Source: Liolophura sinensis
Lineage: Eukaryota; Mollusca; Polyplacophora; Chitonida; Chitonidae
Assembly: GCF_032854445.1 (NCBI RefSeq)
Contig: NC_088300.1
Coordinates: 79,709,084-79,773,083 of the forward strand
Direction: 5' to 3'
Length of the DNA: 64,000 bases
Shown here: positions 2,033 to 64,000 of the stretch, one piece after another
How positions within the stretch are numbered: the stretch's first letter is position 1
Layout of the letters: each line of letters opens with the position of its first letter
Position numbers and translations under genes: made by a program
Notes under the pieces: generated by a model
The model's input: only the letters and a program-made list of their open reading frames with translations
Databases searched by the model: none
What the model was told of the DNA's origin: nothing

Positions 2033-5000
2033 TTGTGGGAATCTGTCCAGCCAGTAAGGGGGCATCCTCTGAGTCCTCCACCTGGGCATGCTGCACGTTG
2101 ATGTTGGTCCGACTGAACAGGTCAGGTGAGTAACCAGGCTCATGGATGACCACAAAGTAAGCCAGCCAATAAATCAGCACCACAGGGGTCGTCAACAGGA
2201 AGGCCATCCTGTGCACAGACAAGGTAAATACAGAGTTGTCAACAGGAAAGCCATCCTGTGCACAGACAAAGTAAATAAAGGGTTGTCAACAGGAAGGCCA
2301 ACCTGTGCACAAACAAGGTAAATACGGGGTTGTCAACAGGAAGACCATCCTGTGCACAAACAAGGTAAATGCGGGCTTTTCAATAGGAAGGCCATTCTGT
2401 GCACAGGTAAGTTACATGTAAATGTGGGGTCGTCAACAGAAAGGCATTCCTGTGTGCAAACAAGGCAAATGCGAGGGCGCCAACGAGAAAGCCATCCTGT
2501 GCGCAAACAAAGCAAATGCGGAGTTGTCAACACGAAGGCCTGTCTGTGCACAAACAAGGTAAATACAGGGTTGTCAACAGGAAAGCCATCCTGTCCACAA
2601 ACAAGGTAAATACAGGGTTGTCAACAGGAAAGCCATCCTGTGCACAAACACGGTCAATAAGGGGTTGTCAACAGGAAGGCCATCCTGTCCACAAACACGG
2701 TAAATAAGGGTTGTCAACAGGAAGGCCATCCTGTCCACAAACATGGTAAATAAGGGGTTGTAAACAGGAAGGCCAAATGCGGAGTTGTCAACACGAAGGC
2801 TTGTCTGTGCACAAACAAGGTAAATACAGGGTTGTCAACAGGAAAGCCATCCTGTTCAGAGACATAGTAAATACGGGGTTGTCAACAGGAAAGCCATCCT
2901 GTGCACAGACAAGGTAAATACTGGGTTGTCAACAGGAAGGCCATCCACAGGCCATTGTCCACAAACAAGGTAAATACTTATAATAAATGAAGGAATGCTG
3001 AATAACTGTATTCTCCAGCTTGTAACAGGGCCAACACCCACAACACCCAGGGGCAACATCCACAACATCCAGGGACAACACCCACAACATCCAGGTACAA
3101 CACCCACACATCCAGGAACAATACTCAAAACATCCACGGACAACACCCAAAACATTCAGGGACAATACCCACAACATCCTGGGACAACACGCACAACATC
3201 CAGGGGCAACATCCACAACATTCAGAGACAACATCCAGGTACAACACCCACAACATCCAGGGACAACATCCTGGGACAACATCCACAAGATCCCAGGACA
3301 CACCCACAACATCCAGAGATAACACCCACAACACCCAGGGGCAACATCCACAACACCAAGGGGCAACACCCACAACACCAAGGGGCAACATCCACAACAT
3401 CCAGGGACAACACCCACAACATCCAGGTACAACACCCACAACATCCAGGAACAATACTCAAAACATCCACGGACAACACCCAAAACATTCAGGTACAACA
3501 CCCACACATCCAGGAACAATACTCAAAACATCCACGGACAACACCCAAAACATTCAGGGACAATACCCACAACATCCTGGGACAACACGCACAACATCCA
3601 GGGGCAACATCCACAACATTCAGAGACAACATCCAGGGACAACATCCTGGGACAACATCCACAAGATCCCAGGACACACCCACAACATCCAGGGATAACA
3701 CCCACAACACCCAGGGGCAACATCCACAACACCCAGGGGCAACATCCACAAGATCCAGGGGCAACACCCACAACATCCAGGGATAACACCCACAACACCC
3801 AGGGGCAACATCCACAACACCCAGGGGCAACATCCACAAGATCCAGGGGCAACACCCACAACATCCAAGGATAACACCCACAACATAGGGGCAACATCCA
3901 CAAGATCCAGGGGCAACACCCACAACATCCAGGGGCAACATCCACAACATCCAGGGACAAAATCTAGGTACAACATCCAGGGACAACACCCACAACATCC
4001 AAGGAAAACACCCACAAAATTAACCTTCCACACATCATACAGATGTTCTCATCAACACAAATACTACTGTCCCACTTAGCATAAACATTATAGTGGAGAT
4101 TACCAAAAATACATATGTAGACAATAACTCAAAAATGATGGTAGAAATTTGCTGTACAGTACTGAACATTTTTCAAGTGACACAGTTTGCTTGATTCTGA
4201 CTGTTTCATCTATGTTTTTGCGAAGTTTAATTAATTCTTATTGTATAAACTTAATTATTGGCATCAAACCTATCACTTTTAGGACAACATATTCATGTGA
4301 TAAAACATTTTTACATACCAAACTTTAAATGATACCCAGTAATACTGTTTTGGAGATTAACAATACTGATAGAATCAACACAAACATGATAATAAAGACT
4401 TACACAAGGAGGGTTGTAGACATTTACACAACAGGGTTGCAGACATTAACACAAACAGGGCTGGAGACACTAACACAAACAGGGTTGCAGAAGTTAACAC
4501 AAACAGGGTTGTAGACACTAACACAAACTAGGTCGTAGACATTAACACAAACAAGGTTGTAAACATTAACACAAACAAGGTTGTAGACATTAACACAAAC
4601 AGCTCTGTAGACATTAACACACAGCACTAGACATTAACACACAGCACTACACATTAACACAAAGTTGTAGACATTAACACACACAGCATTGTAGACATTC
4701 ACACAAACAGCACTGTAGACATGAACACAAACACAGTTGTAGAGATCAATCCATGTAGGATAGGGCTAGGACATTACTACAAAGAGGGTACTCACTTGTT
4801 GAGGCGGCGCAGCTGTTGCTCATCTCCCGACTCTGTGCCCACAGAGCAGTCTGCACAAACACACACAAAATGACATACAATGTATTTGTTTTCAAATGAA
4901 CTGTAAATATGGTCAAACAATACACCTCAAAGGGCTAAATCTTGTCATGACACTGCACTGCTAGATGGAAAAGTGCCCTAAATGGATAAAGCATCTGCTC

Positions 5001-8000: not shown

Positions 8001-11000
8001 AGCCTGCTGTGTCATTTACAGTTTATGTAGCCTGCAGATACAAGGCCCGGGTATTCCTGGCTCAGGTCATAGCCTCCCTAGGGCTTGTGCTGGTGATTTT
8101 GACCCCTATTAAATACATACAAAATTACAATAGGACTGTTGTACAACTAGATTCATGCTTAATTCTGAAACAATGGAAATAAATCTAGGCACCACTGAGG
8201 CTGATCTACGCAAAAAAATAGAAAATCTTTTCTTTGTATGCAAGAAAGACAAAGGAACAAAGTTTAAAATCTTAAATTTTTATAAACTTGAAGAAAAAAA
8301 ATTATATCATAAGACTTCATCATGAATTAATTTTAACCATTGCCCGGTCAGATGCCATCTTCTCAATCGCATCAGCCTTCGGCATCCCCAATAAATTGTT
8401 CACCGATTCTGATATTTGCTTTTTAGAAAATGCTGATTAAACAGTAACATAAACGACAAAAAATGTATTTGTAAAATTTGAACAGCGTGTCTAAGTAGAC
8501 CTATTGTCTGCTTGGGAGATGAATGCGATTTGGGCTAAGATAGTATGGCACTGCCTGTCATAATTTGTGACAGCGTCACAAAAATTTAGGCCACACAATC
8601 TGATAGCAAAGTGTTTCCCTTACCCTTATAAGGTATACTTCAGATGTATCTGAGGTGTGTTGAAGGTGTATCTGAGGTACTGCCAATTATTCAAATTAGT
8701 ACCTCAAGTACACCTGTAGTACACCTCAGTGGAGGTGTACCCTGTAAATAAGGTAAAAAATATGATGCCTGAGGTGTATTTGAGGTACTACTAAGGTATA
8801 GCTGAGGTATACGTTTCTATTTATTTATTTATTTATTTCATTGGTGTTTTATGACGTACTCAAGAATATTTCACTTATACGACAGCAGCCAGCATTATGG
8901 TGGGTGGAAACCGGGCACAGTCCAGGGGAAACCCACAACCCACCGCATTGGTAAGAGACTCCTGGGTCATCACGCTGTGCTAGCGCACTAACCAACTGGG
9001 CCACGGAGGGCCCCTACACACTTATAAGCAAGGTGGATGGATGGATGTATACTGTTTTCACTTTTACTTTGATAGAAAACAAGCTCAAAACACTTAAATA
9101 GAAATTATGGATAAATTTAAGGTAGTTTGTAAGTGCATGCTGTTCTTGGTTCACAGTATCTGTAAATCTCAGCTGACTTACAATAACAACAAGAGTGATT
9201 TACGGTTATGTGAGGCTTTCTAGCAGCTTGATGCAAATTTAGTGCTACCCCTTTCCTATGCATTTTAGAACTGTTCATGTGCCCAATCATGTCACACATT
9301 CTGTCCCTGGAAGCATCAATCAGTGTTTGGGTTGTTTTCCGACGGCGCGGAATATATGCACCTTTGTGTGTATTCAGTCAATCCATGTGTGTATTCGGTC
9401 AATCCATGCTCTGTTCTAAATACACCTGTTGATATTGTCACATTATGATCACCCATGTAACTGGGTCCACAATCAACGAAGTCAAAGAAAGAAAGAGTAC
9501 ATCAAAATATTTGAGTGCCGAAAAATCTATATACACCTCATACTTTAGATCTAATAAACTCATACACCATACAAATGAGTAAAGCTATCAAAAATGTGTA
9601 GGTCTCCCATAGGCATATAAACTTCATCTGAGATGCAGTTGTGGTGCTTATTTGCATATTGTGTACGACACCTCATCTCCACCTTGGATAGGCTTTCTCT
9701 ACATCTCCAACTACTATAGGTAGGTATATGTGTGTGTATGCTTGTCCAGCTACTATAGGTATATGTGTGTGTATGCTTGTCCAGCTACTATAGGTCTATG
9801 TGTGTGTGTGCTTGTCCAGCTACTACAGGTATATGTGTGTGCATGCTTGTCCAGCTACTACAGGTATATGTGTGTGTATGCTTGTCCAGCTACTATAGGT
9901 CTATGTGTGTGTGTGCTTGTCCAGCTACTACAAGTATATGTGTGTGTATGCTTGTCCAAGCTACTATAGGTATATGTGTGTGTATTTGCTTGTCCAGCTA
10001 CAATAGGTCTGTGTGTGTATGCTTGTCCAACTACTATAGGTATATGTGTGTGTATTCTTGTCCAGCTACTATAGGTATATGTGTGTGTATGCTTGTCCAG
10101 CTACTACAGGTATATGTGCGTGTATGCTTGTCCAGCTACTATAGGTATGTGTGTGTGTATTCTTGGCCAGATACTATAGGTATATGTGTGTGTATGCTTG
10201 TCCAGCTACTATAGGTATATGTGTGTGTATTCTTGTCCAACTACTATAGGTATATGTGTGTGTATGCTTGTCCAACTACTATAGGTATATGTGTGTGTAT
10301 GCTTGTCCAGTTACTATAGGTATGTGTGTGTGTGTCTGTCCAACTACTATAGGTATATGTGTGTGTATGCTTGTCCAGCTACTATAGGTATATGTGCGTG
10401 TATTCTTGTCCAACTACTATAGGTATTTGTGTGTGTATTCTTGTCCAGCTACTATAGGTATATGTGTGTGTATTCTTGTCCAGCTACTATAGGTATATGT
10501 GTGTGTATGCTTGTCCAGTTACTATAGGTATGTGTGTGTGTGTGTCTGTCCAACTACTATAGGTATATGTGTGTGTATGCTTGTCCAACTACTATAGGTA
10601 TATGTGTGTGTATGCTTGTCCAGCTACTACAGGTCTATGTGTGTGTATGCTTGTCCAACTACTATAGGTATATGTGTGTGTGTGCTTGTCCAGCTACTAT
10701 CGTTCTATGTGTGTGTATGCTTGTCCAGCTACTATAGGTATGTGTGTGTGTATTCTTGTCCAGCTACTATAGGTATATGGGTGTGTATGCTTGTCCAGTT
10801 ACTATAGGTATGTGTGTGTGTGTCTGTCCAACTACTATAGGTATATGTGTGTGTATGCTTGTCCAGCTACTATAGGTATATGTGCGTGTATTCTTGTCCA
10901 ACTACTATAGGTATTTGTGCGTGTATTCTTGTCCAGCTACTATAGGTATATGTGTGTGTATTCTTGTCCAACTACTATAGGTATATGTGTGTGTATGCTT

Positions 11001-14000
11001 GTCCAGTTACTACAGGTATATGTGTGTGTATGCTTGTCCAACTACTATAGGTATATGTGTGTGTATGCCTGTCCAGCTACTATAGGTATTTGTGTGTGTA
11101 TGCTTGTCCAGCTACTATAGGTATATGTGTGTGTGTGCTTATCCAGTTACTATAGGTATATGTGTGTGTGTGTTTGTCCAACTACTATAGGTACATGTGT
11201 GTGTATTCTTGTCCAACTACTATAGGTATACATGTGTGTATGCTTGTCCAGCTACTATAGGTATATGTGTGTGTATTCTTGTCCAGCTACTATAGGTATA
11301 TGTGTGTTATTCTTGTCCTGTTACTATAGGTATATGTGCGTGTATTCTTGTCCAACTACTATAGGCATTTGTGCGTGTATTCTTGTCCAGCTACTATAGG
11401 TATATGTGTGTGTATTCTTGTCCAGCTACTATAGGTATATGTGTGTGTATGCTTGTCCAGTTACTACAGGTATATGTGTGTGTATGCTTGTCCAACTACT
11501 ATAGGTATATGTGTGTGTATGCCTGTCCAGCTACTATAGGTATTTGTGTGTGTACGCTTGTCCAGCTACTATAGGTATATGTGTGTGTGTGCTTATCCAG
11601 TTACTATAGGTATATGTGTGTGTGTGTTTGTCCAACTACTATAGGTACATGTGTGTGTATTCTTGTCCAACTACTATAGGTATACATGTGTGTATGCTTG
11701 TCCAGCTACTATAGGTATGTGTGTGTGTATTCTTGTCCAGCTACTATAGGTATATGTGTGTGTATGCTTGTCCAGTTACTATAGGTATGTGTGTGTGTGT
11801 CTGTCCAACTACTATAGGTGTATGTGTGTGTATGCTTGTCCAGCTACTATAGGTATATGTGCGTGTATTCTTGTCCAACTACTATAGGTATTTGTGCGTG
11901 TATTCTTGTCCAGCTACTATAGGTATATGTGTGTGTATTCTTGTCCAGCTACTATAGGTATATGTGTGTGTATGCTTGTCCAGTTACTATAGGTATGTGT
12001 GTGTGTGTGTCTGTACAACTACTATAGGTATATGTGTGTGTATGCCTGTCCAACTACTATAGGTATATGTGTGTGTATTCTTGTCCAGCTACTATAGGTA
12101 TGTGTGTGTATGCTTGTCCAGTTACTACAGGTATATGTGTGTGTATGCTTGTCCAACTACTATAGGTATATGTGTGTGTATGCCTGTCCAGCTACTATAG
12201 GTATTTGTGTGTGTATGCTTGTCCAGCTACTATAGGTATATGTGTGTGTGTACTTATCCAGTTACTATAGGTATATGTGTGTGTGTGTTTGTCCAACTAC
12301 TATAGGTACATGTGTGTGTATTCTTGTCCAACTACTATAGGTATACATGTGTGTATGCTTGTCCAGCTACTATTGTTCTATGTGTGTGTATGCTTGTCCA
12401 GCTACTATAGGTATATGTGCGTGTATGCCTGTCCAACTACTGTAGGTATATGTGTGTGTATTCTTGTCCAACTACTATAGGTATATGTGTGTGTATGCTT
12501 GTCCAGCTACTATAGGTATATGTGTGTGTATGTAACATTCCTTGACACAGAGTATATCCTGTGGCCATACAAAAGTTCAAAATGCTTCACAGCTTTTTCT
12601 TAAAATGGCTCATCAATGAATCTATAAACTAGAGGAGTTATTTCACTTTTTTCTAATTTTGGGGTCCATCTTTCGTCAGTTTCCTTAAAACCATACTCTT
12701 CACTCTTTAGGATCTTTTCATGTATCCTTTATGCTGACCTCAGTTTTGTACAGATTCGAACACTGGAAAGGTAGCCTTATTACTCACTGACCAAAAATGA
12801 TGAACAAGCTTGATCCTAGAACACCAGCCATCCCTGTGCCACTGGACCAGGCGTTGACCAGCTTACTGGGAAACTTGTGCAGGTATCCTAGGGTAACACT
12901 GACAACACACGGAAAATAATAGTCCATGTGCAGGCTGTCCATAGACTCAAACCACAGTGATATTCTCTCTTTGATTCTAAACATGTCATGCAGGGAATCC
13001 CATTCTGACCTTTTCACAATAAAATATATATTGTTTCACATCGCTAAAGTTATGAGTTCTGAAACCCAAATATCTGTTTACTTTTTATTTGCAGTAAACC
13101 CTGCACAGTGGTACAAGATTTACACTACACGACAGTTCACATTTTGGTGGATTCACGCAAAGTGACTCTACAGGAATCCATTCAGATCCAGGTTAAAAAC
13201 AACGAAAACATTTTACTTTTGAAGGTGTGAATGGTGTCACTTGCTTTTATTTCAATAAGCAGAGAATTCCATAATGCTGTACCAAGCACTGAGAAACCAT
13301 TTTTGAGATACTTATATGTAGTTTCGATTTAGGAATGGACACATATCTTGGTGAATGAACAGGATGAACATGAACGTAACCACGAACTTGAACACAAATG
13401 AGCAAAATCAGTTCTTTCAGATGGATGTGCCCATTATTTCTCCAATCGAACAGTGAAATCAATCAAGCAAGGAACAAAAACTGTAGCCTTCTAGTGCACC
13501 TAAAAAGTGTCCAGTGACGATACCTGATAAAGAAATCAAGAAAAACACACAAGGTCTAACACGGCACCAAACACACATGCAAAGACCCAAATGCTACTCA
13601 CTTTTCACCAAAGGCTGAACTTGATCCCACAATAACCTGCAACAAGCGTTCAGGAGAATTCAGTGCGTGTACAAACAACTATGTTAGTTTGAAACTAGTT
13701 TTAATAAGTAACCAAGGGGGTTATTTGCGGTAACCGTAATTTTCACGTGGTGCAGTATGCCAGATAGCTGTTTGGAGATGTGAATAATTGCGCATGAGTA
13801 AAATGTGTCATACTGTAGATAGATAAACTAAATATAGATAAGCATAATCCTTCATGTGCACCTATTACAGATTTCAATATAGAGCTAAGCTCTAGTCTGT
13901 TTTCAGTGTTTTTGTCTGAGTTTTCCATTTAAAACAGTCCTTGAGCCCATGTTTAGTCTTAAATATCACACAGACACACAAAATGCATGAAATTGTGCGT

Positions 14001-16895
14001 GACTGCCTATGGTTACAATGCTTTTATCATAGCCACGAGGAATTGTTTGTCTACCAGTGGTAATTCTGCAGTCTAAACAGCTACATGTATCTGGCTTATA
14101 GTGTTATACGTCGCTTCCAATCTTCCTTGAAATATTGTTGCGTAGTTGACGTTGATGTTTTATTAGCTTCATTGTTTGGGTCGGTTATTAATCCATCAGT
14201 TGATTGCTTGGTAAACCCGAACCTAAATAGGGTGTCTGCAACTACGCTACGAACATCCTGAGCCAGAACGTATTTCCCCCCGAGTAAACGTTCACCCCTA
14301 CAAGTGAACATATCCACCTAATGTGTTCCCGGTTTTATTTAGTGTGTAATTAAATATCATAGCTACTGAGACCTGACAGCTAAGATGGAAAGGTCTTACC
14401 TCCATTGTTTCAGCAGTTGGTATTCCCAATATGGTTTATCAAGGAGTGCTCAGTATACATGCAGCTCAACGTGCAAAGAAGTTTCACTTTCAATTTGAGA
14501 GGCACTTCTTATCAAAATACTCACAATGCAACCTATGGCAAATCCAAAACTTGTGGCGTATGCAACACCAAACAGACCTGAAAAAAAACCCCAGATATTT
14601 AGTTACACGTATATCTGACAGCACATTTGCAAAAGAGAGTAAGTGTGCTGAGACATTAAATTAGGGATATCCTTCGTCCTTACATGTTAATTTACATACT
14701 GTGTATTAAGAATGATAATATGGTCAGCAATGTACATGTACTAGTATCAAGTCGAGTAACATATCTTGTTTCACACAGTTATACAGCCTGTATACAGGCT
14801 AAACATGTTCAGTGAATAACAATATAAAAAATCATCAATATAATGTTTTCGAGATAAAAGAAGTACTGAAACTAAATTGTTTTTCTATTATTCAGCAGGT
14901 GTACTTACCACTCAGCATCAGGCAACCACTGACAAGAAACCTTATCCAATAGAACACCATGAAGTAAAACAAAGGTATTCAGCAAATGTGCTTACCAATC
15001 AGCATCAGGCAGCCATTGACAAGAAACCTTATCCGGTAGGACACATTGAGCAGAAGAAAGGTATTCAAACCTGCAAACATAAGACTTGTAACATGCGTAA
15101 TCGGCAGGAGACAATGTAAATTGCTCATAGATGATAACTGTATCAGATCTGAATATAAACTGTGAGAAAATTAATTACAAAATGAACGCTGAATTTGTTT
15201 TTTGTGCTTTGTTCACTTCTTAACATTATATAAAGCTTACATATTAAATAATCAAAACAATGTTACAAGAAAACTTGTGCTTCTTCAAATGACTCAAATG
15301 AGTGCTTCCACTCACATTTCACAAAAACAGAGAGAGAGACATTAGCACCAAACACCAGTCCTACAAAGTTCCTCACACCAAAGCTGAAAAAAAAGAACAC
15401 AGATCTAGACAGAAAGTGATATGAACACTAACCCAAGTGAGTCAATCAACAAATGTTTAATCAAAAGTGTTACATAGCTTCAACAGGTCTCAATTCAGTT
15501 CTGTTATTGTCTTGTGTGTGTTATCCAATAAGTTACTCATTTCATCCATTCCAAACACAAAAACCCAGTTCAATTACCAAACCATTTTAAGATGTTACAG
15601 ACATTTGATATATTCAGTCTGATTCACAGAGACAGGATACTCATGCTATGTTCTGTAATGCTAACTTGTGGGAAAAACTGATGTAATTTGAAGTTTTTGA
15701 GTAATTTTTCATCTACTTGAATGTACGTTACCCAAATATTATTGACTTCTTTGAGATTTACAGTGTACTATATTTTTTATCTATCCTGAAAAGCATTTTG
15801 TACCCAAAAATAATAATATACAATAAAAAACTAAATACGTTTCTCAGTCGCAAGAATCGATATAAACAACTAATATGGGTTTAACTTACAGTTCTATTGG
15901 CATAAATAAAACACAAAAATGAAAGACATAAAAATGAAAATGGTCAATGTGTTGTTAGTAGAACAGATTCATATTGTGCTAGATATACCCCTACCTGCTG
16001 GCAATAGAACTGGCTGCAGAATTCACAATAACATATGGCAGATTGTTTATAGCTCCCATAAGAAAGAGTCCCAGCTGAAACAAAGAGGAGAAGTGTGTAA
16101 AGGTCTGACAGAGGAATCACAGCAGTGTTCACAAAGCTTACACATTCAGCTGAAGCATTGCATTTTACACTCATATTTAATTCTTTTAATTCCTTCAATC
16201 ATCAAGGAAAATTGCTGTAGTACAATTTATCAAACCAATGCAAGTCCATCTCAATAAACCAACACTCTGCTCATACCCAAAATAACACAATCTGCTCATG
16301 AATATATCCACCAACGTATCCACCCAAAGCTAAGCTGGACGTTCCTACCGAAACGCCCAGCTTCGGTCATCTAGACTTCCATGCAGACAATTTCAGTCAA
16401 AAAACATGGTTTAAGCCCAACCTTATTTTTACTATCCACTCTGATTCTCTGATATGAACAAACCGTAAAATGTCAAAGCCAGCATCGGTAAACCTCCTTT
16501 CAAAAGTAATCCTGCCATTTAAAACTTTTAAATTGGGCAAACCAAATTAAGGTCTGCCATGTTTGGAATTTTTCTTTTCAACTTCTGGCAGGCTGATGGA
16601 CCGCGGAAATCTTATCACACCCAACATTGTGTTTACAGAACATGCAATTTTTTCAAATGCAGTTCACATATTAACATTGCCAAAATATTGTGTCGAGGGA
16701 ACATTTAGTATGAAAATAAAGGTATTGGTGTTCTCCTATTAGCACCGATCACGTGCTGGTTGAAGTCATGTTGATCAGTGCTAAATCCAGGTGTTTGTGC
16801 AGCCACAACAGTTAATGAGAATTAACACTAGTTTATATCAAAATAATGTCAATATTCTAAATTTTCGAACGCACCCAGTTTCTCTTGGAAGCCAT
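2033..16895 (-). CDS. CLN3: CLN3 (battenin)-family lysosomal membrane protein, N-terminal half
   Basis: This is a multi-pass membrane protein of the CLN3 family, which acts in endolysosomal membranes; CLN3 is the Batten-disease protein. Nine minus-strand exons splice in consistent phase: 16895-16875, 16074-15995, 15383-15316, 15070-14996, 14577-14525, 13636-13602, 12898-12792, 4850-4796 and 2208-2033, giving 223 codons. Hallmarks are LFLMGAINNLPYVIV in exon 2 (human has LLGLCNNFSYVV) and FGEN...NAWSSGTGMAGVLG in exons 6-7 (human GLGEV...SWWSSGTGGAGLLG). Exon 9 carries a membrane segment followed by an acidic EDSEDAPLL loop. The C-terminal half lies off the left edge. The start MASKRNW is the only good ATG in phase and gives a short N-terminus. 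Intron 7 (about 7.9 kb) and intron 8 are full of minisatellites. The gene is head-to-head with the F-BAR gene. It could be a diverged CLN3-like paralogue rather than the strict orthologue. Confidence 0.85.
2209..2970. repeat. Minisatellite made from the 3' splice site and first bases of CLN3-like exon 9 (about 47-bp unit)
   Basis: About 15 units of roughly 47 bp lie directly upstream (in gene sense) of exon 9. On the minus strand each unit carries CAGGATGGC(C/T)TTCCTGTTGAC, which is the acceptor AG plus the first codons of exon 9 (MAFLLTTP), followed by intron sequence. Open frames across it on the minus strand read HRMAFLLTTP-like blocks repeatedly. The real exon continues after ACGACCCC; the repeats stop matching there. 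Confidence 0.9.
3025..4020. repeat. Short-unit minisatellite (about 19-21 bp), roughly 48 copies
   Basis: GGACAACACCCACAACATCC and the variant GGGGCAACATCCACAACA alternate for about 1 kb, with sub-blocks repeated in higher order: the stretch near 3120-3230 reappears near 3525-3640. It lies in intron 8 of the CLN3-like gene. The long open frames on both strands are by-products of the repeat. Confidence 0.92.
4385..4740. repeat. 24-bp minisatellite near exon 8 of the CLN3-like gene
   Basis: About 14 copies of a unit around TTAACACAAACAGGGTTGTAG, with later copies losing the GGTT. It ends about 55 bp downstream (gene sense) of exon 8 (4850-4796) but does not copy exon sequence. Confidence 0.85.
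4860..6985. other. Intron 7 of the CLN3-like gene, no recognisable element
   Basis: AT-rich, unstructured sequence with only short chance open frames on both strands. A few local duplications (GGCACCAGGCATGGCACCA near 5467) are visible. I see no exon with plausible borders and no RNA gene. Confidence 0.5.
6985..7400. repeat. About 43-47 bp minisatellite, roughly nine copies
   Basis: Units around ATGGCACTATTACAGGGC followed by TTAAATCTGCAAGAAAACTC repeat in intron 7 of the CLN3-like gene, with alternating variants (TTAGACCTGCAAACAAACAA versus TTATATCTGG). From 7400 to 8620 I see no further element. Confidence 0.88.
8620..8815. repeat. AGGTGTA/TACACCT-rich palindromic repeat, copy 1
   Basis: Imperfect short units of GAGGTGTA and GAGGTAC occur in both orientations (for example AGTACACCTCAGTGGAGGTGTAC near 8719). 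The same composition recurs at 53695-54005, and both copies abut the 3' tail of a SINE. It could be a degraded MITE-like or foldback element; I do not recognise a named family. Confidence 0.6.
8815..9013 (-). mobile_element. tRNA-derived SINE, family 1, minus orientation
   Basis: Read on the minus strand it starts with a tRNA-like head (GGGGCCCTCCGTGGCCCAGT, box-A-like). It continues through a degenerate GTTTCCCC segment and the CCACCATAATGCTGGC core to ATATTCTTGAGTACGTC and an (AAAT)n tail at 8815. It matches the fuller plus-strand copy at 53388-53655 but has an internal deletion. Confidence 0.85.
9715..12535. repeat. 35-bp minisatellite, about 80 copies with higher-order structure
   Basis: A 35-bp unit (GTATATGTGTGTGTATGCTT then GTCCAGCTACTATAG) fills 2.8 kb of intron 7 of the CLN3-like gene. 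Variants (CCAACTACTATAG, TATTCTTGTCC, a shortened TGTGTCTGTCC form) recur at spacings of about 454 bp, which is 13 units; the block at about 10917 reappears at about 11371. The 67-149 codon open frames read CVCLSSYYRYM-like periodic peptide and are not genes. Confidence 0.95.
14904..14990 (-). pseudogene. Decayed tandem copy of CLN3-like exon 4 with its donor site
   Basis: This 87-bp block is a second copy of the adjacent exon 4 and its 5' splice site (15070-14991), offset by 87 bp. It keeps the GATAAGGTTTCTTGTCA stretch and a good donor (GTAAGTAC). It carries one extra base relative to exon 4, which shifts the frame, and it has no AG acceptor at its upstream border. It is therefore probably not used as an exon. 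Confidence 0.75.
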
Positions 16896-37095: not shown

Positions 37096-37099
37096 TCCG

Positions 37100-46589: not shown

Positions 46590-46945
46590 CCTCATCACAA
46601 CTCACTCTGTCCCGCCGCGTCACAACTCACTCTATCCCGCTGTATCACAACTCACTCTGTCCCGCCGTATCACAACTCACTCTATCCCGCTGCATTACAA
46701 CTCACTCTGTCCCGCCGTATCACAACTCACTCTATCCCGCCATATCACAACTCACTCTATCCCGCTGCATTACAACTCACTCTGTCCCGCCGCATCACAA
46801 CTCACGCTGTCCAGCCGCATCACAACTCACTCTGTCCAGCCGCATCACAACTCACTCTGTCCAGCCGCATCACAACTCACTCTGTCCCGCCGCATTACAA
46901 ATCACGCCCTCAAACCGCATCACAACTCACGCCGATGTTCGGTGC
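46590..46945. repeat. 24-bp minisatellite, about 14 copies
   Basis: CATCACAACTCACTCTGTCC plus CGCC repeats, with variants TATCACAACTCACTCTATCC and CAGCCG. It lies in the intergenic space 5' of HSPA12-B. Its open frames are periodic and not coding. Confidence 0.92.
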
Positions 46946-48020: not shown

Positions 48021-48021
48021 T

Positions 48022-48175
48022 GTTTAGGGCTGTTTACCACAACATGTGGCAGTATATTTCCCCTGTTTAGGGCTGTTTGCCACAAGATGTGGCAGTATAC
48101 TTCCCCTGTTTAGGGCTGTTTGCCAAAACATGGGGCAGTATATTTCCCCTGTTTAGGGCTGTTTGCCAAAACAGT
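48022..48175. repeat. Tandem repeat (about 43 bp, four copies) left of the DIRS-like element
   Basis: Four units built from GGGCTGTTTGCCACAACATG and GGCAGTATATTTCCCCTGT. They resemble the longer array at 50905-51605 on the opposite side of the DIRS-like element (shared CTGTTTACCACAACA and TGGCAGTATATTTC). Confidence 0.85.
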
Positions 48176-48199
48176 AATCTTTTTCGTATGGCCTCGGCC

Positions 48200-50890: not shown

Positions 50891-50904
50891 TTTTCTTCAG
50901 TTCT

Positions 50905-51605
50905 AAGGCTGCATCATCACAACAGTATGGCAGTATATTTCTTCAGTTCAGAGCTGTTTACCACAACAGTATTTTTCTTCACGACAGTATGAATGTATTT
51001 TACTTCAATTCTAATACCGCTTCACCACAATAGTATGATAGTACTTTTCTTCTGTTCTAGGACTGTTCACAATAGTATGATAGTACTTTTCTTCTGTTCT
51101 AGGACTGTTCACAACAGTATGATAGTACTTTTCTTCAGTTCTAGTACTGTTCACAACAGTATGGCAGTACTTTTCTTCTGTTCTAGGACTGTTCACAACA
51201 GTATGGCAGTACTTTTCTTCTGTTCTAGGACTGTTCACAACAGTATGGCAGTACTTTTCTTCTGTTCTAGGACTGTTCACAACAGTATGGCAGTACTTTT
51301 CTTCTGTTCTAGGACTGTTCACAACAGTATGACAGTACTTTTCTTCTGTTCTAGGACTGTTCACAACAGTATGGCAGTACTTTTCTTCTGTTCTAGGACT
51401 GTTCACAACAGTATGGCAGTACTTTTCTTCTGTTCTAGGACTGTTCACAACAGTATGGCAGTACTTTTCTTCTGTTCTAGGACTGTTCACAACAGTATGG
51501 CAGTACTTTTCTTCTGTTCTAGGACTGTTCACAACAGTATGGCAGTACTTTTCTTCTGTTCTAGGACTGTTCACAACAGTATGACAGTATTTTTCTTCTG
51601 CTCTA
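50905..51605. repeat. 42-bp minisatellite right of the DIRS-like element
   Basis: About 15 nearly identical units of CAGTATGGCAGTACTTTTCT, TCTGTTCTAGGACTGTTCAC and AA. The first, more diverged units (50905-51010) look like the repeat at 48022-48175. The array ends about 160 bp beyond the TRDMT1 stop codon. It is open on both strands (NSMAVLFFCSRTVH- and RTEEKYCHTVVNSP-like), 42 bp being divisible by three; not coding. Confidence 0.93.
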
Positions 51606-51762
51606 ATACTCTCTTTACAACAAGGCATTTGTTACTGATAAATTCAGGAAATTGTATCTTTAATAGGTTAATGTTCCTGTCATCAAAAAATTTACACATA
51701 AAATTGACATATAATTCATTATTGCACAATCCTTCCCCAAAGCATTCAGCACATTCTACAAA

Positions 51763-54700
51763 TCAGCATTTGCCTCCCTCCATCAGTAACAATCTTATCA
51801 AAACAGAAACTACATGCACATTTAAACTGTTCCCCAGACATTTGTACATCTGCTTTCTGGTCACATCTTCAGGAAAACCTGAAAGAGTAGAAATAAAGCT
51901 GGTCAATACCTTCATATAATAATTATGTAATAATAATTAAACACAGGCTGCATCAATGTCTCTCTAGTTTAAGTTTTCCACATCCACTCACTGTAGACAA
52001 TCATATAACTATATAACATGTTTTGACCCAGTGGAGTCTTTGTGACACTGCTCACTGCCCACTAAGTTCATGAGCACTCAGTCTCAGGAAGTCTTCAAAT
52101 CTCACTAAAAACAACTCAACTTTCTCAGATCAAATGAAACTGGATTTGAACACACAATCCAAGTGGACAGAAATGCAGTCATGTTTCACTATGTATCGTG
52201 CAGATTACAACTAAACAACCACTCAAATTTATTCTGAAGGTAATATGTGCAGACTGATATATTTTGCAAGTAAGTGGGAAGGTTTGCCAACAACCTGCAG
52301 ATGGTCGTGGGTTTCCCCCGGGCTTTGCCCGGTTTCCTTCCACCATAATGCTGGCCGCCGTCATATAAGTGGAATATTCTTGAGTACAGCGTAAAACACC
52401 AATCAAATAAATAAATAAATATGTTTTGCAAAGTTTAAAATTGGCCAATGTAGTTTTGTCTCTGAAAGTCTGCACTGAAAGTTGCTCTTTCATATGTGAA
52501 ATTGTTGAGGAATTAGGGAAATGGTAGCCACTACACCGCATGTAAATCTGTCTCAATGGACATGGTTTTAAACTGAAGAATAGCTGACTCTGTCTGTCCT
52601 TCACCCGCTGTACTTTACACACCTCTCCAGCTGACCTCAAACTGTCCATATAAGTTTCTTACAACAATAGACACAGCTACCCAGAAAATAGTGAAATTAA
52701 CAACAAAGACTACAACCTAAAGGCTACATGATGGAGTAAGATGACGTACTAAATGATGCAGGGAAGCACAACAAGTTAGCCATCTCCCTGGGGGTGAACC
52801 AGCGTAGCTGTAAATCCCTCAGTGTGACCATGGTATGTTCTGGCCACTCCTCTTTAGGGTCACCTTTCTTCTTCTCCAGACATGTTTTCATTTCACTTGC
52901 ACACTTCACAGCCTGACAACATAACACAAAGGTATGAGTCACTATGAGTTACTGACAGCAGACATGGCACAAAACCTGCTGGCATTAATGTTTTGGTACC
53001 ATATTCCCCATGAAGGACATGCACGGCATTGTGCCCGGAAATGAGATATGTACCAAGACATACAAACAGGTGATGGGAAAATCTCGAGCTCACAGACTGA
53101 AATATGCACATTCTTAACTGCAGCCATCGTGGAATAATCAGTGGCAAATATATTCTTGCTCTGTAATTGGTCAATATTTGCACACTGCATGGCAAATCAG
53201 ACAATAGCTTATATTTATTTAGTAATCATTCTTTTACCACAAAAACATTTGCAATTTTGTCACCATTTTGTTTGAAGTAAAATGTTTGAATCTCATCTCT
53301 TATTTTAAGACTTTAAAAAAGTGGCTGAAGGGTACATGAGATACATGATCACATAATTATATGGTACATGATCACATAATTATATGGTGGGGCCTCCGTG
53401 GCTCAGTCGGTTACCGCGCTAGCGCAGCGTAATGACCCAGGAGCCTCTCACCAATGCGGTCGCTGTGAGTTCAAGTCCAGCTCTTGCTGGCTTCCTCTCC
53501 GGCCGTAAGTGGGAAGGTCTTTCAGCAACCTGCGGATGGTTGTGGGTTTCCCCCGGGCTCTGCCCGGTTTCCACCCACCATAATGCTGGCCGTCGTCGTA
53601 TAAGTGAAATATTCTTGAGTACGGCGTAAAACACCAATCAAATAAATAAATAAATCATTATATGGTACATGATCACATAAATATATTCAAAAACTGTCGA
53701 AGTCTGTAAGGTGTACCAGAGGTACATCATTAATTTTTTTCAACTTTCAAAGTTTCTGAGGTATGCCTGAGGTACATCTTCTAAGTGTTGATTTGTTTCC
53801 AAGTTGCTGAGGTCTATTTGAGGTACATTACCTGATATTCAAAAAAAGTTCCTGAGGTATATCTGAGGTATAGGCATACGGCTGGGGTGTACATGAGGAA
53901 CAGTACACCTCAGATAATATGGATGAGGTATACACCTCATCTATACCTCACACTGTGGTGTACAAATACCTCAAACAGAGATGTACACCTCATGTCTTTA
54001 AGGGCTTTGCTGTTCACAGACATTTGGGTAGAAGCTTGGATGTGTGAGTGAGTGAGTACTTAACAATTTTTCAGTCATATTAAAGTGTATATAATGTGCC
54101 TCCTTGTCACTGGACGGATTTCCACCACTCTTTTGTCAACGAGGTGTTGCACTATCCCCTTAATGCTGAATGCCATGCGAGGAAGTTACAACTTCCTCTT
54201 TTTTTTTTTTAAGGTCTTAGGTGTGAGCAAACCCAGGATTGACCCTGGATCTACCGCTTCCAACATGGACGCTCTACCAACTGTGCTATCGGGACCAGTG
54301 CTTGTGTGAGAATGTATGAAGCCTTGCTGAAAGAAGTTGCAAATAGTCCCAACAGAATGAAACCTTTGGCTTATTTGGGTTTACCTTGGTATAAACAAGT
54401 AGAGTGCAATGACCACTTGACCCGACTCACAGTTTGCACTTGATAGCATTTAGTATTAATGGTGGTGGTCACAAGGGGAATTTTTGACCATAATATATCT
54501 TGTGTGGAATGACCTGGCAGATGGCAGTAAGAGAGAGCAGCAGAAGCTTGGAATTGTGGCATAATTCTACACAATAGAGACTGCTGTAGCAGGCCATTGA
54601 CAGAAGTGGGATATAAGTAACAACAATACTACTTACCTGTGGGTTGTCAGTCATCAAGAAAACTGATCCTCCTCCCTCGATAAAATTACCATACCTGACA

Positions 54701-57700: not shown

Positions 57701-60700
57701 TACCAACAATACTTTGAACAAGAAACACGGAACTGCAGATTCTGCGTGTGACAGCAGAGTGAATCACAGTCATTGCCATTAGACTTGTTGTTCATCCTAA
57801 TACACAGGAATGGCCTATGTATTAGTGAGATGCTCCTGGGTCATTGTGCCGCCCTAGCATGCTGACTACTTCTGCTCTGGTGGTAGCTGGGATTAAGATA
57901 CATGTAGACGGAGGGATATGAAGCTCTACTGTTTTCGCTCAGTCAGGCTTGAGAATCTTGTTTCTCTTGATCACGCAGCAGTCTGAGACTTCACCAGACT
58001 AGCTTCCCTTGATCATGCAGCAGTCTGAGACTTCACCAGACTAGCTTCCCTTGATCATGCAGCAGTCTGAGACTTCACCAGATTAGCTTCCCTTGATCAC
58101 GCAGCAGTCTGAGACTTCACCAGATTAGCTTCTCTTGATCACACGGCAGTCTGGGACTTCACCAGATTAGCTTTTCTTGATCACACGGCAGTCTGGGACT
58201 TTACCAGATTAGCTTCTCTTGATCACGCGGCAGTCTGAGACTTTACCAGATTAGCTTCTCTTGATCATGCGGCAGTCTGAGACTTCACCAGATTAGCTTC
58301 TCTTGATCACACGGCAGTCTGGGACTTCACCAGACTAGCTTCTCTTGATCACGCGGCAGTCTGAGACTTCACCAGACTAGCTTACATTGATCATGCGGCA
58401 GTCTGGGACTTCACCAGATTAGCTTCTCTTGATCACACGGCAGTCTGGGACTTCACCAGATTAGCTTCTCTTGATCACACAGCAGTCTGAGACTTCACCA
58501 GACTAGCTTCTCTTGATCACACGGCAGTCTGGGACTTCACCAGATTAGCTTCTCTTGATCACACGGCAGTCTGGGACTTCACCAGATTAGCTTCTCTTGA
58601 TCACGCGGCAGTCTGGGAATTCACCAGATTAACTCAACAGCCACAGAAGAAGTCATCGCTTAATCTTTGCCGTAACACTTCAAAATACGCCTAAAGTCAT
58701 CAACCAGATTCCAGAAAAGGTTGCAGAGGTCAGTATAATGTAGTGAGTGACTGCATGGGGTTTAACGTCTTCTGTAATGTGCCTCTTTGTAGCAGGAAGG
58801 ACTTCCTCCGCTCATTTATCCAGTGCTGATTCACTGACACGGCTTACCAAAGGCAAGTAAGCCGCCCCAACCCAGCCATTATACCGATACAAGTCAACCA
58901 GTCATTGCACTAACCCCTTAATGCTGAACGCCAACCGAGGAAGTTACAACTTCCTCTTTTAAGGACTTGGGTGTGACTCGACCCAGGATTGACCCTCCCG
59001 AAGCGGACACTCTAGAAACTGTGCTATCGGAGCCGGTCAGTATAATATGTTTGTTTACATATTAATTCAACTATCATGAATTCGATTGGTATTTACCCCC
59101 GAAATTAATTCTACATTTCTTGTGGTATGATCCAGAGTGTCGTCAAAATGGCATCGTCTCAAATGTCTGCTCTTCTGGTAGAGGGGTCATGTTTCAGTTT
59201 TATTAAAAAAATATCAGTCCCAGTCCCACCCCAAGCCTGAACAATGCTGACTTAATTAATGTGATTTCGGAAAATGTACCTAAAGTAAATATATTTTTGT
59301 ATTATGCAATTTGCTGCATTTTTTCTTTTGTTGAAAACATCTAAAAATAAGACCATAAGTGGGAAGGTCTGTAGCAGCCTGCGGATGGTCGTGGGTTTCC
59401 CCCAGGCTTTGCCCGGTTTCCACCCACCATAATGCTGGCCATCGTCGTATAAGTGAAATATTCTTGAATACGGCGTAAAACATCAATCAAATCAAATAAA
59501 TAAATCTAAAAATAAGAATTTTCAAATTCTCCTTTGTGTTTTTAGTTTTCACCCTAGGGCTTCAAAGCTTAAAAGATGACCCAGGTTTTGTTAGTTTTAG
59601 GCACTGAACTCTTGTAGCACTTTTGCAGCATTAAAATTTGGGGCGCTACCTTCGACACAAGTGAGAAAAACCCCTACGCAAATCACACTTTAAAACTGCA
59701 ATGCTGTCGGGTCATCCAAAATCAAGTTAACGCGCCCAGGGACTAAAATCTGGTAGATTACAGGTTGTAATTGCCATGTAAATAGTTGTACGTCTATGAG
59801 TCATGTTCTTTATCCTTAATGGCGTAAAAAAAATATAAAAAAAGAGCATGTTTCATTTACAATGAATAGTCATTTTTGGACATCTTTTTTTTAAATAATT
59901 TATTTGTTATGAATTTCTTTTCTGTTAAGCTGTGAACAGCTGTATGAAGTCGGCTGTTTTGTTTTTATTTTTAATTCCACAGTGTAATCCTGCACAGGCA
60001 AATGTTCAGTAACAGTACTATTTAAATTTTAGATATTTATTTCAGCAACAAAAGCATTAAATATTGCTTGGAGTGTCTTCAATTATTTTAGTGTTTGTTG
60101 CATTTATTTACAACAGTACAGCATATACAATGAAAACCGAGAGGTAAGGTTAAATTGAACTGTGTAATATTATGGAGTTTATAGCGCAGAAGAATAATTA
60201 ACTGTCAGCAAGTGTATGGCACGTGGATGTTGGGTCCACTGGATCAGGGATTAAGAGATGTCTCAGGGATTAAGAGATGTCTCAGGGATTAACAGATGTC
60301 TCTTAATCCCAGGTGGTAGACAAATAGTGAACACATTCTATGATCCTTAAGAGAAGCATCTTTGCAAATACAGTGTATACTGTAATAAGTTTTACAGTGT
60401 ATAATGTAATAAGTTTTACAGTGTATAATGTAACAAGTTTTTACATTGTATAATGTAATAAGTTTTTAAGCAAGCTTTCTAGTTTTCTTCTACGCCAACC
60501 ACAAGAGGTGCCGGCAGAGAGAGCAGCATACTTTACCAAGTACATGACCACCCAGGAGACCTGAAGCTTGTGCTCGGAGCCTGGAGTTCTGGGGAGGACA
60601 GATGACAGTTATCCACCTGACAGTCCACAGTTCCAATGTCACCATATGATATATATGTCACCCATGTAAATCTGACAGGGTAAATCGCAGCATTTCCTCT

Positions 60701-61438
60701 TTTGTGTCACTTATCTCCTGAATGGACACAAAGTAATCTTTCTCTGTATCCAGCTAACTGAACAGAATAAAAGTGACCAGACCTGGTAGATGTACTGACA
60801 CTGTCCCAGTGTCTCCAGCAGGGAACCTCTGGCCTGTGATGTCTCAAACCCTTTCACATTCTCCACCCAGTAGATACTGAGGCGGGCAGGCAACCTGTCA
60901 AGGGGAGACAACCACAACACCACAAACTTACTATTGGTACCTGTTTTCAACCTTTAACATTTTGAGAGCAGATGTGTCATTCAAAGAATTTTCAATGACT
61001 TATTTATCTGATTGTAGTTTTATGCAGTACTCAAAAATTTTTCAGCTATACAACAGCAGCCAACATTATGGTGGGAGAAAAGCACACAGCCCCTGGGGGA
61101 ATCTTCAGTGATCTGTGGTTACATGTGGATTGTTTTTCTGCTCTTACAGGTGGATTGTTTTATTTTGTGGTCATAGGTGCATATATTTCCTGCACAGAAG
61201 CTTTGTTTTTCTGCAGTCACAGCTGGATTGTTTTTATGTTGCCATACTTTGTTATAAGAGTCGAATTCAAAGACTCAAGATACACTTGCCTTTGTAGGAG
61301 TGTGAGGAGATAGCTGAAGGAGTTGGTCCTTGTGTCTGCCAGGTCTTTCTGTCTGCCCATCCTCGTGAATGGCTGACATGGGGGACTCATCACAATCATG
61401 TCTACACACAGGCTAGTCAGCTTTTCCACAGTCACAGC
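51763..61438 (-). CDS. TRDMT1: TRDMT1 (DNMT2), tRNA cytosine-5 methyltransferase, lacking the 5' exons
   Basis: DNMT2 enzymes methylate C38 of tRNA-Asp and related tRNAs using S-adenosylmethionine. Seven minus-strand exons join in phase: 61438-61290, 60894-60783, 57499-57392, 56527-56094, 54694-54637, 52912-52750 and 51878-51763 (379 residues plus TGA). Motif IV MSPPCQPFTRMGRQ with the catalytic Cys, motif VI WVENVKGFE, and FGIPNSRLRYYLIA (motif VIII region) are present. So are the target-recognition region SCFARRYGNFIEGGGS, RWFTPREMANLL (motif IX) and CLGNSLNVHVV (motif X). The SAM-binding N-terminus (motif I, about 50-60 residues) must lie beyond 64000. The first visible intron has a GC donor (AAG/GCAAGT). 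The DNMT2 hallmark CFT reads CFA here. The intron upstream of the PPCQ exon is a minisatellite copied from that exon's start; other introns hold SINEs and two arrays. Confidence 0.94.
52262..52425 (+). mobile_element. 5'-truncated SINE, family 1
   Basis: Body and tail only: TGGTCGTGGGTTTCCCCCGG, TTTCCTTCCACCATAATGCT, ATATTCTTGAGTACAGCGTA and AATCAAATAAATAAATAAAT. It lies in the last intron of TRDMT1. Confidence 0.85.
53388..53655 (+). mobile_element. Full-length tRNA-derived SINE, family 1
   Basis: This is the best copy in the window. It has a tRNA-like head with box A (GTGGCTCAGTCGG) and box B (GAGTTCAAGTCC), and a body with CCCCCGGGCTCTGCCCGGTT and CCACCATAATGCTGGCC. It ends with TTGAGTACGGCGTAAAACAC and an (AAAT)n tail. 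Both sides carry ATTATATGGTACATGATCAC, a likely target-site duplication with some extra local repetition on the left. It lies in the TRDMT1 intron between exons at 54637 and 52912. Other copies: 8815, 17944, 34495, 52262, 59352 and 61000. Confidence 0.9.
53695..54005. repeat. AGGTGTA/TACACCT-rich palindromic repeat, copy 2
   Basis: Clusters of CTGAGGTAT, GAGGTACAT and, in the second half, the complement TACACCTCA recur at irregular spacing, giving foldback potential. It resembles 8620-8815 and follows the tail of a SINE, as that copy does. Confidence 0.6.
54090..54302 (-). mobile_element. tRNA-derived SINE, family 2, minus orientation
   Basis: Read on the minus strand the right end starts TCCCGATAGCACAGTTGGTA with a box-A-like AGCACAGTTGGTAGAG. 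A box-B-like GGGTCAATCC follows, then the shared body GGAAGTTGTAACTTCCTC (partly palindromic). It matches 58752-59040. Confidence 0.75.
54810..55565. repeat. 46-bp minisatellite in a TRDMT1 intron
   Basis: About 16 units of CAACTGTATGGTTCAGAAGG, CAACAGACAGCTGCACCTGT and ATCTAT. It starts about 115 bp upstream (gene sense) of the TRDMT1 exon at 54694-54637 but shows no exon sequence. Long open frames (197 and 314 codons) are repeat read-through, the latter running into unique intron sequence. Confidence 0.93.
57940..58635. repeat. 42-bp minisatellite, about 16 copies, in a TRDMT1 intron
   Basis: Units of CTTCTCTTGATCACACGGCA plus GTCTGGGACTTCACCAGATTAG alternate between GGCAGTCTGGGAC and AGCAGTCTGAGAC variants. 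The array lies between the exons at 60783 and 57499. Confidence 0.93.
58752..59040 (-). mobile_element. tRNA-derived SINE, family 2, minus orientation
   Basis: The fuller copy of the family seen at 54090. On the minus strand it begins GGCTCCGATAGCACAG, passes through GGAAGTTGTAACTTCCTC and ends in GACGTTAAACCCCATGCAGT, the typical tail, at about 58760. A fragment of the same tail sits at 17228-17250. Confidence 0.75.
59352..59507 (+). mobile_element. 5'-truncated SINE, family 1
   Basis: Body and tail only (TGGTCGTGGGTTTCCCCCAG, CCACCATAATGCTGGCC, ATATTCTTGAATACGGCGTA, AATAAATAAAT), in the TRDMT1 intron between the exons at 60783 and 57499. From 59510 to 60240 I see no other element. Confidence 0.85.
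60240..60475. repeat. Two small tandem repeats
   Basis: TCAGGGATTAAGAGATGTC occurs three times at about 60243-60300, and a roughly 25-bp ACAGTGTATAATGTAATAAG unit four times at about 60370-60470. Confidence 0.75.
61000..61085 (-). mobile_element. 3' fragment of SINE family 1, minus orientation
   Basis: Minus-strand reading gives CCCACCATAATGTTGGCTGC and a worn AATTTTTGAGTACTGC followed by AAATAAGTC. It lies between the exons at 61290 and 60894 of TRDMT1. Confidence 0.65.
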
Positions 61439-61440
61439 CT

Positions 61441-64000
61441 GAAATAGTGAACAGAATATAAACTGGAGATGTGCTGACATGGGGGGACTCATCACAATCA
61501 TGTCTACACACTGGCTAGTCAGCTTTTCTACAGTCACAGCCTGAAAGAGTGAACAGAATGTACACTGGAGATGTGCTGACATGGGGGACTCCATCACAAT
61601 CATGTCTACACACAGGCTAGTCAGCTTTTCCACAGTCACAGCCTGAAATAGTGAACAGGAATATACACTGGAGATGTGCTGACATGGGGGACTCATCACA
61701 ATCATGTCTACACACAGGCTAGTCAGCTTTTCCTCATTCACAGCCTGAAATAGTGAACAGAATGTACACTGGAGATGTGCTGACATGGGGGACTCATCAC
61801 AATCATGTCTACACACAGGCTAGTCAGCTTTTCCACAGTCACAGCCTGAAATAGTGAACAGAATGTACACTGGAGATGTGCTGACATGGGGGACTCATCA
61901 CAATCATGTCTACACACAGGCTAGTCAGCTTTTCCTCATTCACAGCCTGAAATAGTGAACAGAATGTACACTGGAGATGTGCTGACATGGGGGACTCATC
62001 ACAATCATGTCTACACACTGGCTAGTCAGCTTTTCTACAGTCACAGCCTGAAAGAGTGAACAGAATGTACACTGGAGATGTGCTGACATGGGGGACTCAT
62101 CACAATCATGTCTACACACAGGCTAGTCAGCTTTTCCACAGTCACAGCCTGAAATAGTGAACAGAATATACACTGGAGATGTGCTGACATGGGGGACTCA
62201 TCACAATCATGTCTACACACAGGCTAGTCAGCTTTTCCTCATTCACAGCCTGAAATAGTGAACAGAATGTACACTGGAGATGTGCTGACATGGGGGACTC
62301 ATCACAATCATGTCTACACACAGGCTAGTCAGCTTTTCCACAGTCACAGCCTGAAATAGTGAACAGAATGTACACTGGAGATGTGCTGACATGGGGGACT
62401 CATCACAATCATGTCTACACACAGGCTAGTCAGCTTTTCCTCACTCACAGCCTGAAATAGTGAACAGAATATACACTGGAGATGTGCTGACATGGGGGGA
62501 CTCATCACAATCATGTCTACACACAGGCTAGTCAGCTTTTCCACAGTCACAGCCTGAAATTAGTGAACAGAATGTACACTGGAGATGTGCTGACATGGGG
62601 GACTCATCACAATCATGTCTACACACAGGCTAGTCAGCTTTTCCTCACTCACAGCCTGAAATAGTGAACAGAATATACACTGGAGATGTGCTGACATGGG
62701 GGACTCATCACAATCATGTCTACACACAGGCTAGTCAGCTTTTCCACAGTCACACCTGAAATAGTGAACAGAATGTACACTGGAGATGTGCTGACATGGG
62801 GGACTCATCACAATCATGTCCACACACAGGCTAGTCAGCTTTTCCTCACTCACAGCCTGAAATAGTGAACAGAATGTACACTGGAGATGTGCTGACATGG
62901 GGGACTCATCACAATCATGTCTACACACAGGCTAGTCAGCTTTTCTACAGTCACAGCCTGAAATAGTGAACAGAATGTACACTGGAGATGTGCCGACATG
63001 GGGGACTCATCACAATCATGTCTACACACAGGCTAGTCAGCTTTTCCACAGTCACAGCCTGAAATAGTGAAACAGAATGTACACTGGAGATGTGCTGACA
63101 TGGGGGACTCATCACAATCATGTCTACACACAGGCTAGTCAGCTTTTCTACAGTCACAGCCTGAAATAGTGAATAGAATATACACTGGAGATGTGCTGAC
63201 ATGGGGGACTCATCACAATCATGTCCACACACAGGCTAGTCAGCTTTTCCACAGTCACAGCCTGAAATAGTGAACAGAATGTACACTGGAGATGTGCTGA
63301 CATGGGGGACTCATCACAATCATGTCTACACACAGGCTAGTCAGCTTTTCCACAGTCACAGCCTGAAATAGTGAACAGAATGTACACTGGAGATGTGCTG
63401 ACATGGGGGACTCATCACAATCATGTCTACACACAGGCTAGTCAGCTTTTCTACAGTCACAGCCTAAAATAGTGAACAGAATGTACACTGGAGATGTGCT
63501 GACATGGGGGGACTCATCACAATCATGTCTACACACAGGCTAGTCAGCTTTTCCACAGTCACAGCCTGAAATAGTGAACAGAATGTACACTGGAGATGTG
63601 CTGACATGGGGGACTCATCACAATCATGTCTACACACAGGCTAGTCAGCTTTTCCACAGTCACAGCCTAAAATAGTGAACAGAATATACACTGGAGATGT
63701 GCTGACATGGGGGACTCATCACAATCATGTCTACACACTGGCTAGTCAGCTTTTCCACAGTCACAGCCTGAAATAGTGAACAGAATGTACACTGGAGATG
63801 TGCTGACATGGGGGACTCATCACAATCATGTCTACACACAGGCTAGTCAGCTTTTCCACAGTCACAGCCTGAAATAGTGAACAGAATGTACACTGGAGAT
63901 GTGCTGACATGGGGGACTCATCACAATCATGTCCACACACTGGCTAGTCAGCTTTTCCACAGTCACAGCCTGAAATAGTAAACAGAATGTACACTGGAGA
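61441..64000. repeat. 101-bp minisatellite made from the start of the TRDMT1 catalytic exon
   Basis: About 25 units of roughly 101 bp run to the right edge. On the minus strand each contains TTTCAGGCTGTGACTGTGGA (acceptor plus first codons). The copy continues through KLTSLCVDMIVMSPPCQ, a copy of the first about 70 bases of the exon at 61438 including the catalytic PPCQ, and then drops into intron-like sequence. A frequent variant reads TGAGTGAGGAAAAG or TGAATGAGGAAAAG, giving AVSEEKL or AVNEEKL. The frame of the real exon stays open upstream through about four to five units (to about 61816). Confidence 0.95.

Follow-up and report, generated by a model that had tools for sequence, protein, structure and literature searches.

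Minisatellites spanning exon-intron junctions in the chiton Liolophura sinensis, with a suggested bias towards donor sites

The 64,000-bp stretch of the chiton Liolophura sinensis analysed here as a whole (the window; C6:79,709,084-79,773,083, where C6 is NC_088300.1) carries a CLN3-like gene, two paralogous HSPA12 genes (copies A and B) and a TRDMT1 gene, in each of which a tandem array of short units lies across an exon-intron junction. The genome searched comprises 632 contigs and 609,464,459 bases; the assembly was published as Liolophura japonica (PMC11068029) and the species was later corrected to L. sinensis (PMC12441733). A Pfam search gave two PF02487 matches in the CLN3-like gene just below the family cut-off (E 1.8e-4 and 2.6e-4), and seven PF02487 rows above it in a CLN3 paralogue on contig C7. 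The TRDMT1 gene contains a PF00145 match above the family cut-off (window positions 61292-61423, E 0.008), and its PPCQ motif, which we take to be a TRDMT1 marker, adds to this match in naming the gene. The name HSPA12 is the label given in an earlier note on this DNA (the original prediction) and is retained here as our assumption; the searches place the gene no closer than distant HSP70. In the PF02487 and PF00145 searches, the copies of the window arrays did not show up as repeated matches.

Arrays in the window were called with Tandem Repeats Finder, and those described here as spanning junctions all belong to genes of the minus strand. At exon 9 of the CLN3-like gene (2033-2208) a 47-bp unit, composed of the acceptor and the first 24 nt of the exon, is repeated over positions 2185-2946 (overlapping Tandem Repeats Finder rows), the 5' end of the exon being the exon-proximal copy; the acceptor falls between 2209 and 2208, inside the array, and its AG is intact in 14/14 aligned copies. 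The acceptor of the PPCQ exon of TRDMT1 (exon 61290-61438, acceptor 61439/61438) likewise lies inside an array, whose 101-bp unit contains the acceptor and the first 67 nt of the exon. This array occupies positions 61372-64000 and extends about 10.7 kb past the window (to L039:4727), so that it measures about 13.4 kb in total; it holds about 130 copies, with AG present in 130/130 of those aligned. The same exon closes with a GC donor (AAAG/GCAAGTG, window 61289-61290), i.e. it is followed by a GC-AG intron. A two-copy form is found at exon 4 of the CLN3-like gene (14895-15070), where the exon with its donor (14996-15070) is accompanied by an 86-nt tandem copy lacking an acceptor (14895-14980); 71 of the 87 alignment columns of the pair are identical.

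In both HSPA12 genes it is the donor of exon 2 that has been multiplied, in units of 36 bp (the end of exon 2, with a coding piece of about 29 nt, plus the donor) arranged in a 72-bp higher order. The array of copy A lies at 33555-34200 (exon 34172-34378) and that of copy B at 41822-43997 (exon 43969-44175), and the donors, at 34172/34171 and 43969/43968 respectively, are inside the arrays. Exons 1, 2 and 3 of copy A form a single open frame when joined, so the exon 2 donor of this copy is the true one. GT is kept in 15/16 aligned copies in A and 52/58 in B. All four arrays named in the original prediction contain true junctions, as it had claimed; the two-copy form is also present, and the coding pieces, which it had put at about 25-70 bases per unit, measure about 24, 29 and 67 nt. 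Its tally was nevertheless too low, since two more junction arrays occur in the same CLN3-like gene, just left of the window (region L022): a 129-bp unit repeated 7.7 times, comprising most of exon 10 and its donor, and a 73-bp unit repeated 23.8 times at the exon 11 donor. A donor array with 55-bp units is also present in the CLN3 paralogue of contig C7.

Comparison of HSPA12 paralogues gave some insight into the history of one of these arrays. Exon 2 is 98% identical between copies A and B, and neither 19 close paralogues nor one distant one have an array across the exon 2 donor (in one paralogue, L002, the intron contains a weak 20-bp repeat of two copies). Because the close paralogues lack it, the array must have arisen once, in the A/B lineage, and we rejected two separate events in A and B. 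The copy number changed after the gene duplication, as 16 copies could be aligned in A and 58 in B. The 19 exon 2 copies are located at C6:50,810,910-50,990,832, about 7-17 kb apart and on one strand; they make up a tandem cluster of genes, distant from the pair in the window. The insertion of a single repeat family at the various junctions was also rejected, since every unit that was read is composed of sequence from the exon and intron hosting it.

The window had been chosen for its arrays and, for this reason, the frequency expected by chance was estimated from a separate sample taken elsewhere in the genome. The sample was drawn by gene family and comprised nine chaperonin (PF00118) and nine myosin-head (PF00063) gene regions (201,218 bases), and it was enlarged, once the first result was known, by 38 further myosin exons with 380 bp per side, taken from 11 additional places; these were all the remaining rows. 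Regions were chosen from match tables with the sequence unseen, although repeated matches in these tables already revealed one chaperonin array, and the nine myosin regions were selected for compactness. For the chaperonins, 70 of the 76 match rows were used (six were dropped because their places did not resemble any of the nine multi-exon genes), rows repeating the same exon model positions being merged into that exon. For the myosins, 83 of 84 rows were used (C1:39788328 was dropped), and 65 of 213 candidates were scored, hence some exons are missing.

Exons were defined from profile matches and cross-paralogue tblastn, and junctions from frame and continuity; 3 of 143 exons yielded no donor and some introns have low-scoring sites. 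Several tblastn matches, out of order or in arrays, were excluded by eye (M4 13786 and 13895; M5 9641, 10876 and 13638; M6 803 and 898; M12 2192; M13 6209). The expected number of spanned junctions was calculated from the array unit length and the density of array edges over the next 300 bp of intron. One CCTe exon with wrong automatic edges was corrected after the arrays had been seen (uncorrected, it would add one spanned donor and one spanned acceptor), and the L059 array, which is the far side of the L058 array, was retained as a neighbour of an acceptor. Three donor-derived arrays (CCTh 36 bp, M5 82 bp and M5 32 bp, the last scored as 'near') were left uncounted because the exon had been found via the array or the first copy had decayed. 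In the muscle-type myosin gene M1 (L040-L041) we also noted exon clusters that match identical model positions (3170/3608, 5295/5788/6391 and 11659/12568), which are likely alternative exons.

Of the 201 kb of gene sequence in the sample, arrays make up 14.6%; 12 of the 359 sampled junctions, distributed over 9 of 29 gene regions, are spanned by one. The two sides of the intron differ in this respect: 10/178 donors are spanned versus 3.68 expected (P 0.0014), and 2/181 acceptors versus 2.90 expected (P 0.81), a donor to acceptor ratio of 10:2 (P 0.021). Over all 21 listed junction arrays, including those ascertained in other ways, the ratio is 17:4 (P 0.007). The donor excess was present in the first batch (6/140 vs 2.27, P 0.016), among the 38 exons added subsequently (4/38 vs 1.39, P 0.037), the corresponding acceptor counts being 2/143 and 0/38, and in both families (chaperonins 3/64 vs 1.06, P 0.07; myosins 7/114 vs 2.62, P 0.009). 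It was stable at widths of 150-600 bp (P 0.0004-0.005) and at unit cut-offs of at least 20 or at least 30 bp, survived the removal of any one of the seven gene regions with donor arrays (P 0.002-0.010), and was retained when only exon pieces of up to 60 nt were considered (6 vs 2.43, P 0.029). When the count was confined to the 93 complete introns, with array-free intron lengths, no significant excess was obtained for donors (3 vs 1.37, P 0.15) or acceptors (2 vs 1.37, P 0.40). Each of the 12 counted arrays has an exon piece that falls short of the length of one unit, and therefore the surplus copies sit on the intron side.

These counts suggest that chance placement accounts for the acceptors and for part of the donors, and that the donor excess is moderate. 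The original prediction, which held chance placement to be unlikely and proposed a process duplicating DNA at junctions, is thus partly supported, on the donor side only. G+C content is 0.404 in the arrays, 0.373 in the intron background and 0.466 in exons; the higher value of exons may aid seeding at their edges, without the power to separate donors from acceptors.

A hidden junction origin of other intronic arrays was sought through splice-site motifs, and none was found. In 61 non-junction intronic arrays with units of at least 20 bp, donor-like motifs occurred twice in sense and twice in antisense orientation (shuffled mean 0.7), giving no sense-strand excess, and acceptor-like motifs occurred three times in sense and once in antisense orientation (shuffled mean 2.4), with no clear excess. 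Other repeats were noted in the window. Much of a CLN3-like intron is occupied by a 35-bp array of about 80 copies (9721-12532), with no junction source visible, and two arrays about 3 kb apart, of 43 bp (48021-48173) and 42 bp (51026-51605), look related by eye and contain an acceptor-like stretch on the plus strand, with no exon seen. Remains resembling reverse transcriptase were recognized by eye at 23,000-24,700, in an intron of a plus-strand gene between the CLN3-like and HSPA12 genes, and whole or partial copies of a dispersed short interspersed element at 53390-53660, 8820-9020 and 59350-59510. The copy at 53390-53660 has what we take to be a tRNA-like head.

The copied splice sites were then considered as possible decoys. 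Conservation was evaluated in 11 arrays of 6 to 130 copies by whole-unit alignment, with the unit rotated so that the splice site was away from its edge; unrotated units, in which the site lies at the edge and the alignment is unsound, gave P 0.16, a value superseded by the rotated version. In these 11 arrays GT/AG showed no significant advantage in conservation over the remainder of the unit (mean mid-rank 0.40 vs 0.5 expected, P 0.12), and the same was true of a wider splice-site window (mean mid-rank 0.49, P 0.45). The dinucleotide is intact in all aligned copies of 6 of the 11 arrays, and in the CCTh array GT is retained in 14/25 copies. The unit length is a multiple of three in 6 of 21 arrays, i.e. 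at chance level, and read-through of the HSPA12 arrays meets an in-frame stop after 76 codons in A and 38 codons in B. The selection for decoy splice sites suggested in the original prediction is therefore unsupported.

Taking these data together, we consider that the arrays are probably minisatellites of the type termed 'mirages', i.e. tolerated tandem duplications of junctions, an interpretation built on their observed anatomy, their recurrence in many genes, the change of copy number in HSPA12, the lack of significant conservation of the copied splice sites and an excess confined to donors. A short tandem duplication would by chance cover an exon-intron junction, and it would be tolerated if one copy served as the working junction while the surplus intronic copies were removed with the intron. 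Later changes in copy number, presumably by unequal exchange or slippage, together with partial homogenisation, would follow as in any minisatellite. In this scheme the arrays would be neutral and the surplus would be eliminated by normal splicing. The donor excess is probably a mixture of differential survival with seeding that is easier, or retention that is longer, at the ends of exons. A copied acceptor would lie upstream of the true one and be met first, while a copied donor would lie downstream and could be ignored. Survival alone would be unable to raise donors above the neighbouring intron, and therefore an effect on seeding or retention, which is a guess on our part, would also be needed. 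We regard the donor bias itself as suggestive.

Some points weigh against this interpretation. The donor excess does so wherever placement is supposed to be purely random, and the harmless splicing of array-bearing transcripts is an assumption. In 8 of 11 arrays the conservation of GT/AG is also slightly, though not significantly, above average, and an anchored-window comparison, to which we prefer the whole-unit test, shows it to be slightly better conserved than adjacent positions in 14 of 16 arrays (M6 was left out, as the motif was not found). The simplest rival is plain coincidence: where arrays are common and introns short, some must cover junctions, with no excess anywhere. The density of arrays, the acceptors lying at expectation and the lack of a significant excess on either side of complete introns all fit this view, which we nonetheless think unlikely, given that the donor excess is stable over widths and unit cut-offs and was repeated in the second batch. 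At the other extreme, a mutational process might target 5' splice sites, for example if co-transcriptional structure or U1-bound nascent RNA seeded tandem duplication. This could account for the contrast between donors and acceptors in both batches and both families, and for its robustness to the removal of any gene region and to the restriction to short exon pieces. It is poorly matched by the complete introns alone and by the equal numbers of sense and antisense donor motifs in other intronic arrays, and the sample represents two families of one genome; we would give such targeting little credence. Its strongest form, a process of the chiton germline that starts tandem duplications with a preference for 5' splice sites and has left roughly one exon in 20 with an array of surplus donors, seems to us more doubtful still.

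Tolerated duplication may also be set against selection maintaining decoy or alternative splice sites, for instance as a means of varying exon length or regulating splicing. The arrays with GT/AG intact in every aligned copy, as well as the 36-nt HSPA12 units, which are in frame with the exon, would be expected in that case. The dinucleotide is, however, not significantly better kept overall and is missing from 11/25 CCTh copies, few periods are multiples of three, in-frame read-through reaches stops, and the 19 HSPA12 paralogues do without an array, which makes maintenance by selection very improbable. Finally, the 13.4-kb TRDMT1 array exceeds the typical read of the assembly (HiFi coverage 14x, mean read 8.3 kb; PMC11068029), so its length is uncertain. 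We find it scarcely credible that the arrays are assembly artefacts, as copies diverge on average by 2-15% from the consensus in the 11 arrays measured, and all other junction arrays measured to their end are shorter than 2.5 kb, well inside one read.

The present data extend mirages from a handful of reported amphioxus loci to 9 of 29 sampled mollusc gene regions and, if the sample is representative, a chiton genome of about 28,000 genes (PMC11068029) would hold thousands of junction arrays. Each array provides a natural experiment on the choice that the spliceosome makes among up to about 130 near-identical sites, and the arrays offer splice sites ready to be used in intron gain or in changes of exon length. 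The claim of a donor bias is specific and testable with the published annotation. Were germline seeding at 5' splice sites true, splicing or transcription would shape the birthplaces of minisatellites.

The original prediction knew of no named system of this kind, but such a system has already been described in amphioxus, where mirages are minisatellite-like tandem repeats across exon-intron boundaries, found in Adh3 and the globin genes BflGb6 and BflGb9, and at other loci as well (PMC3087553). They affect both 5' and 3' boundaries, have units of 10-160 bp, and many but not all of their copies keep AG/GT; Adh3 data and RT-PCR of the globins suggest that splicing is undisturbed (PMC3087553). 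The chiton arrays, in the window and elsewhere, resemble them in that the unit holds exon and adjoining intron with the junction inside the array, and in that both acceptors (CLN3-like exon 9, TRDMT1, M3, M6) and donors (HSPA12 and others) are involved. Their units of 31-140 bp (21 arrays) fall within the amphioxus range, and many but not all copies keep AG/GT, as the HSPA12 B and CCTh arrays illustrate. Mirages are further characterized by array lengths that are unstable between alleles and in somatic tissue, and by homogenisation within the array from which the boundary copies are exempt; in the chiton, the paralogous HSPA12 arrays A and B differ in length, as noted above. Unlike in amphioxus, where BflGb6 haplotypes have 3 and 6 copies (PMC3087553), the chiton arrays reach about 130 copies; the host is a mollusc and not a cephalochordate, 9 of the 29 sampled gene regions are affected, and a donor bias has been measured.

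Two other phenomena are related. In human genes located in segmental duplications, internal tandem repeats include minisatellite expansions at exon-intron boundaries that alter gene structure (PMC2812944); these differ in consisting of about four units of 30 bp, in having been recognized by comparison of recent paralogues with transcript evidence, and in that the copying of splice sites is not their defining feature. In the Rogers model of intron gain, exemplified by a potato RdRp gene, tandem duplication across an intron-exon boundary copies the splice signals (PMC4974935), whereas in the chiton an old junction is multiplied within an existing intron. Our search of the open-access literature found nothing closer for molluscs or under other names, which is not proof of absence from print; the article on the L. 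japonica genome (PMC11068029) never uses the word 'tandem' in its main text, and neither 'tandem repeat' nor 'satellite' appears in a comparative study of chiton genomes (PMC12005716). Junction minisatellites as such are thus already known, though seldom reported, and what is new here is that mirages occur in a mollusc, are common across the sampled genes and are situated mostly at donors.

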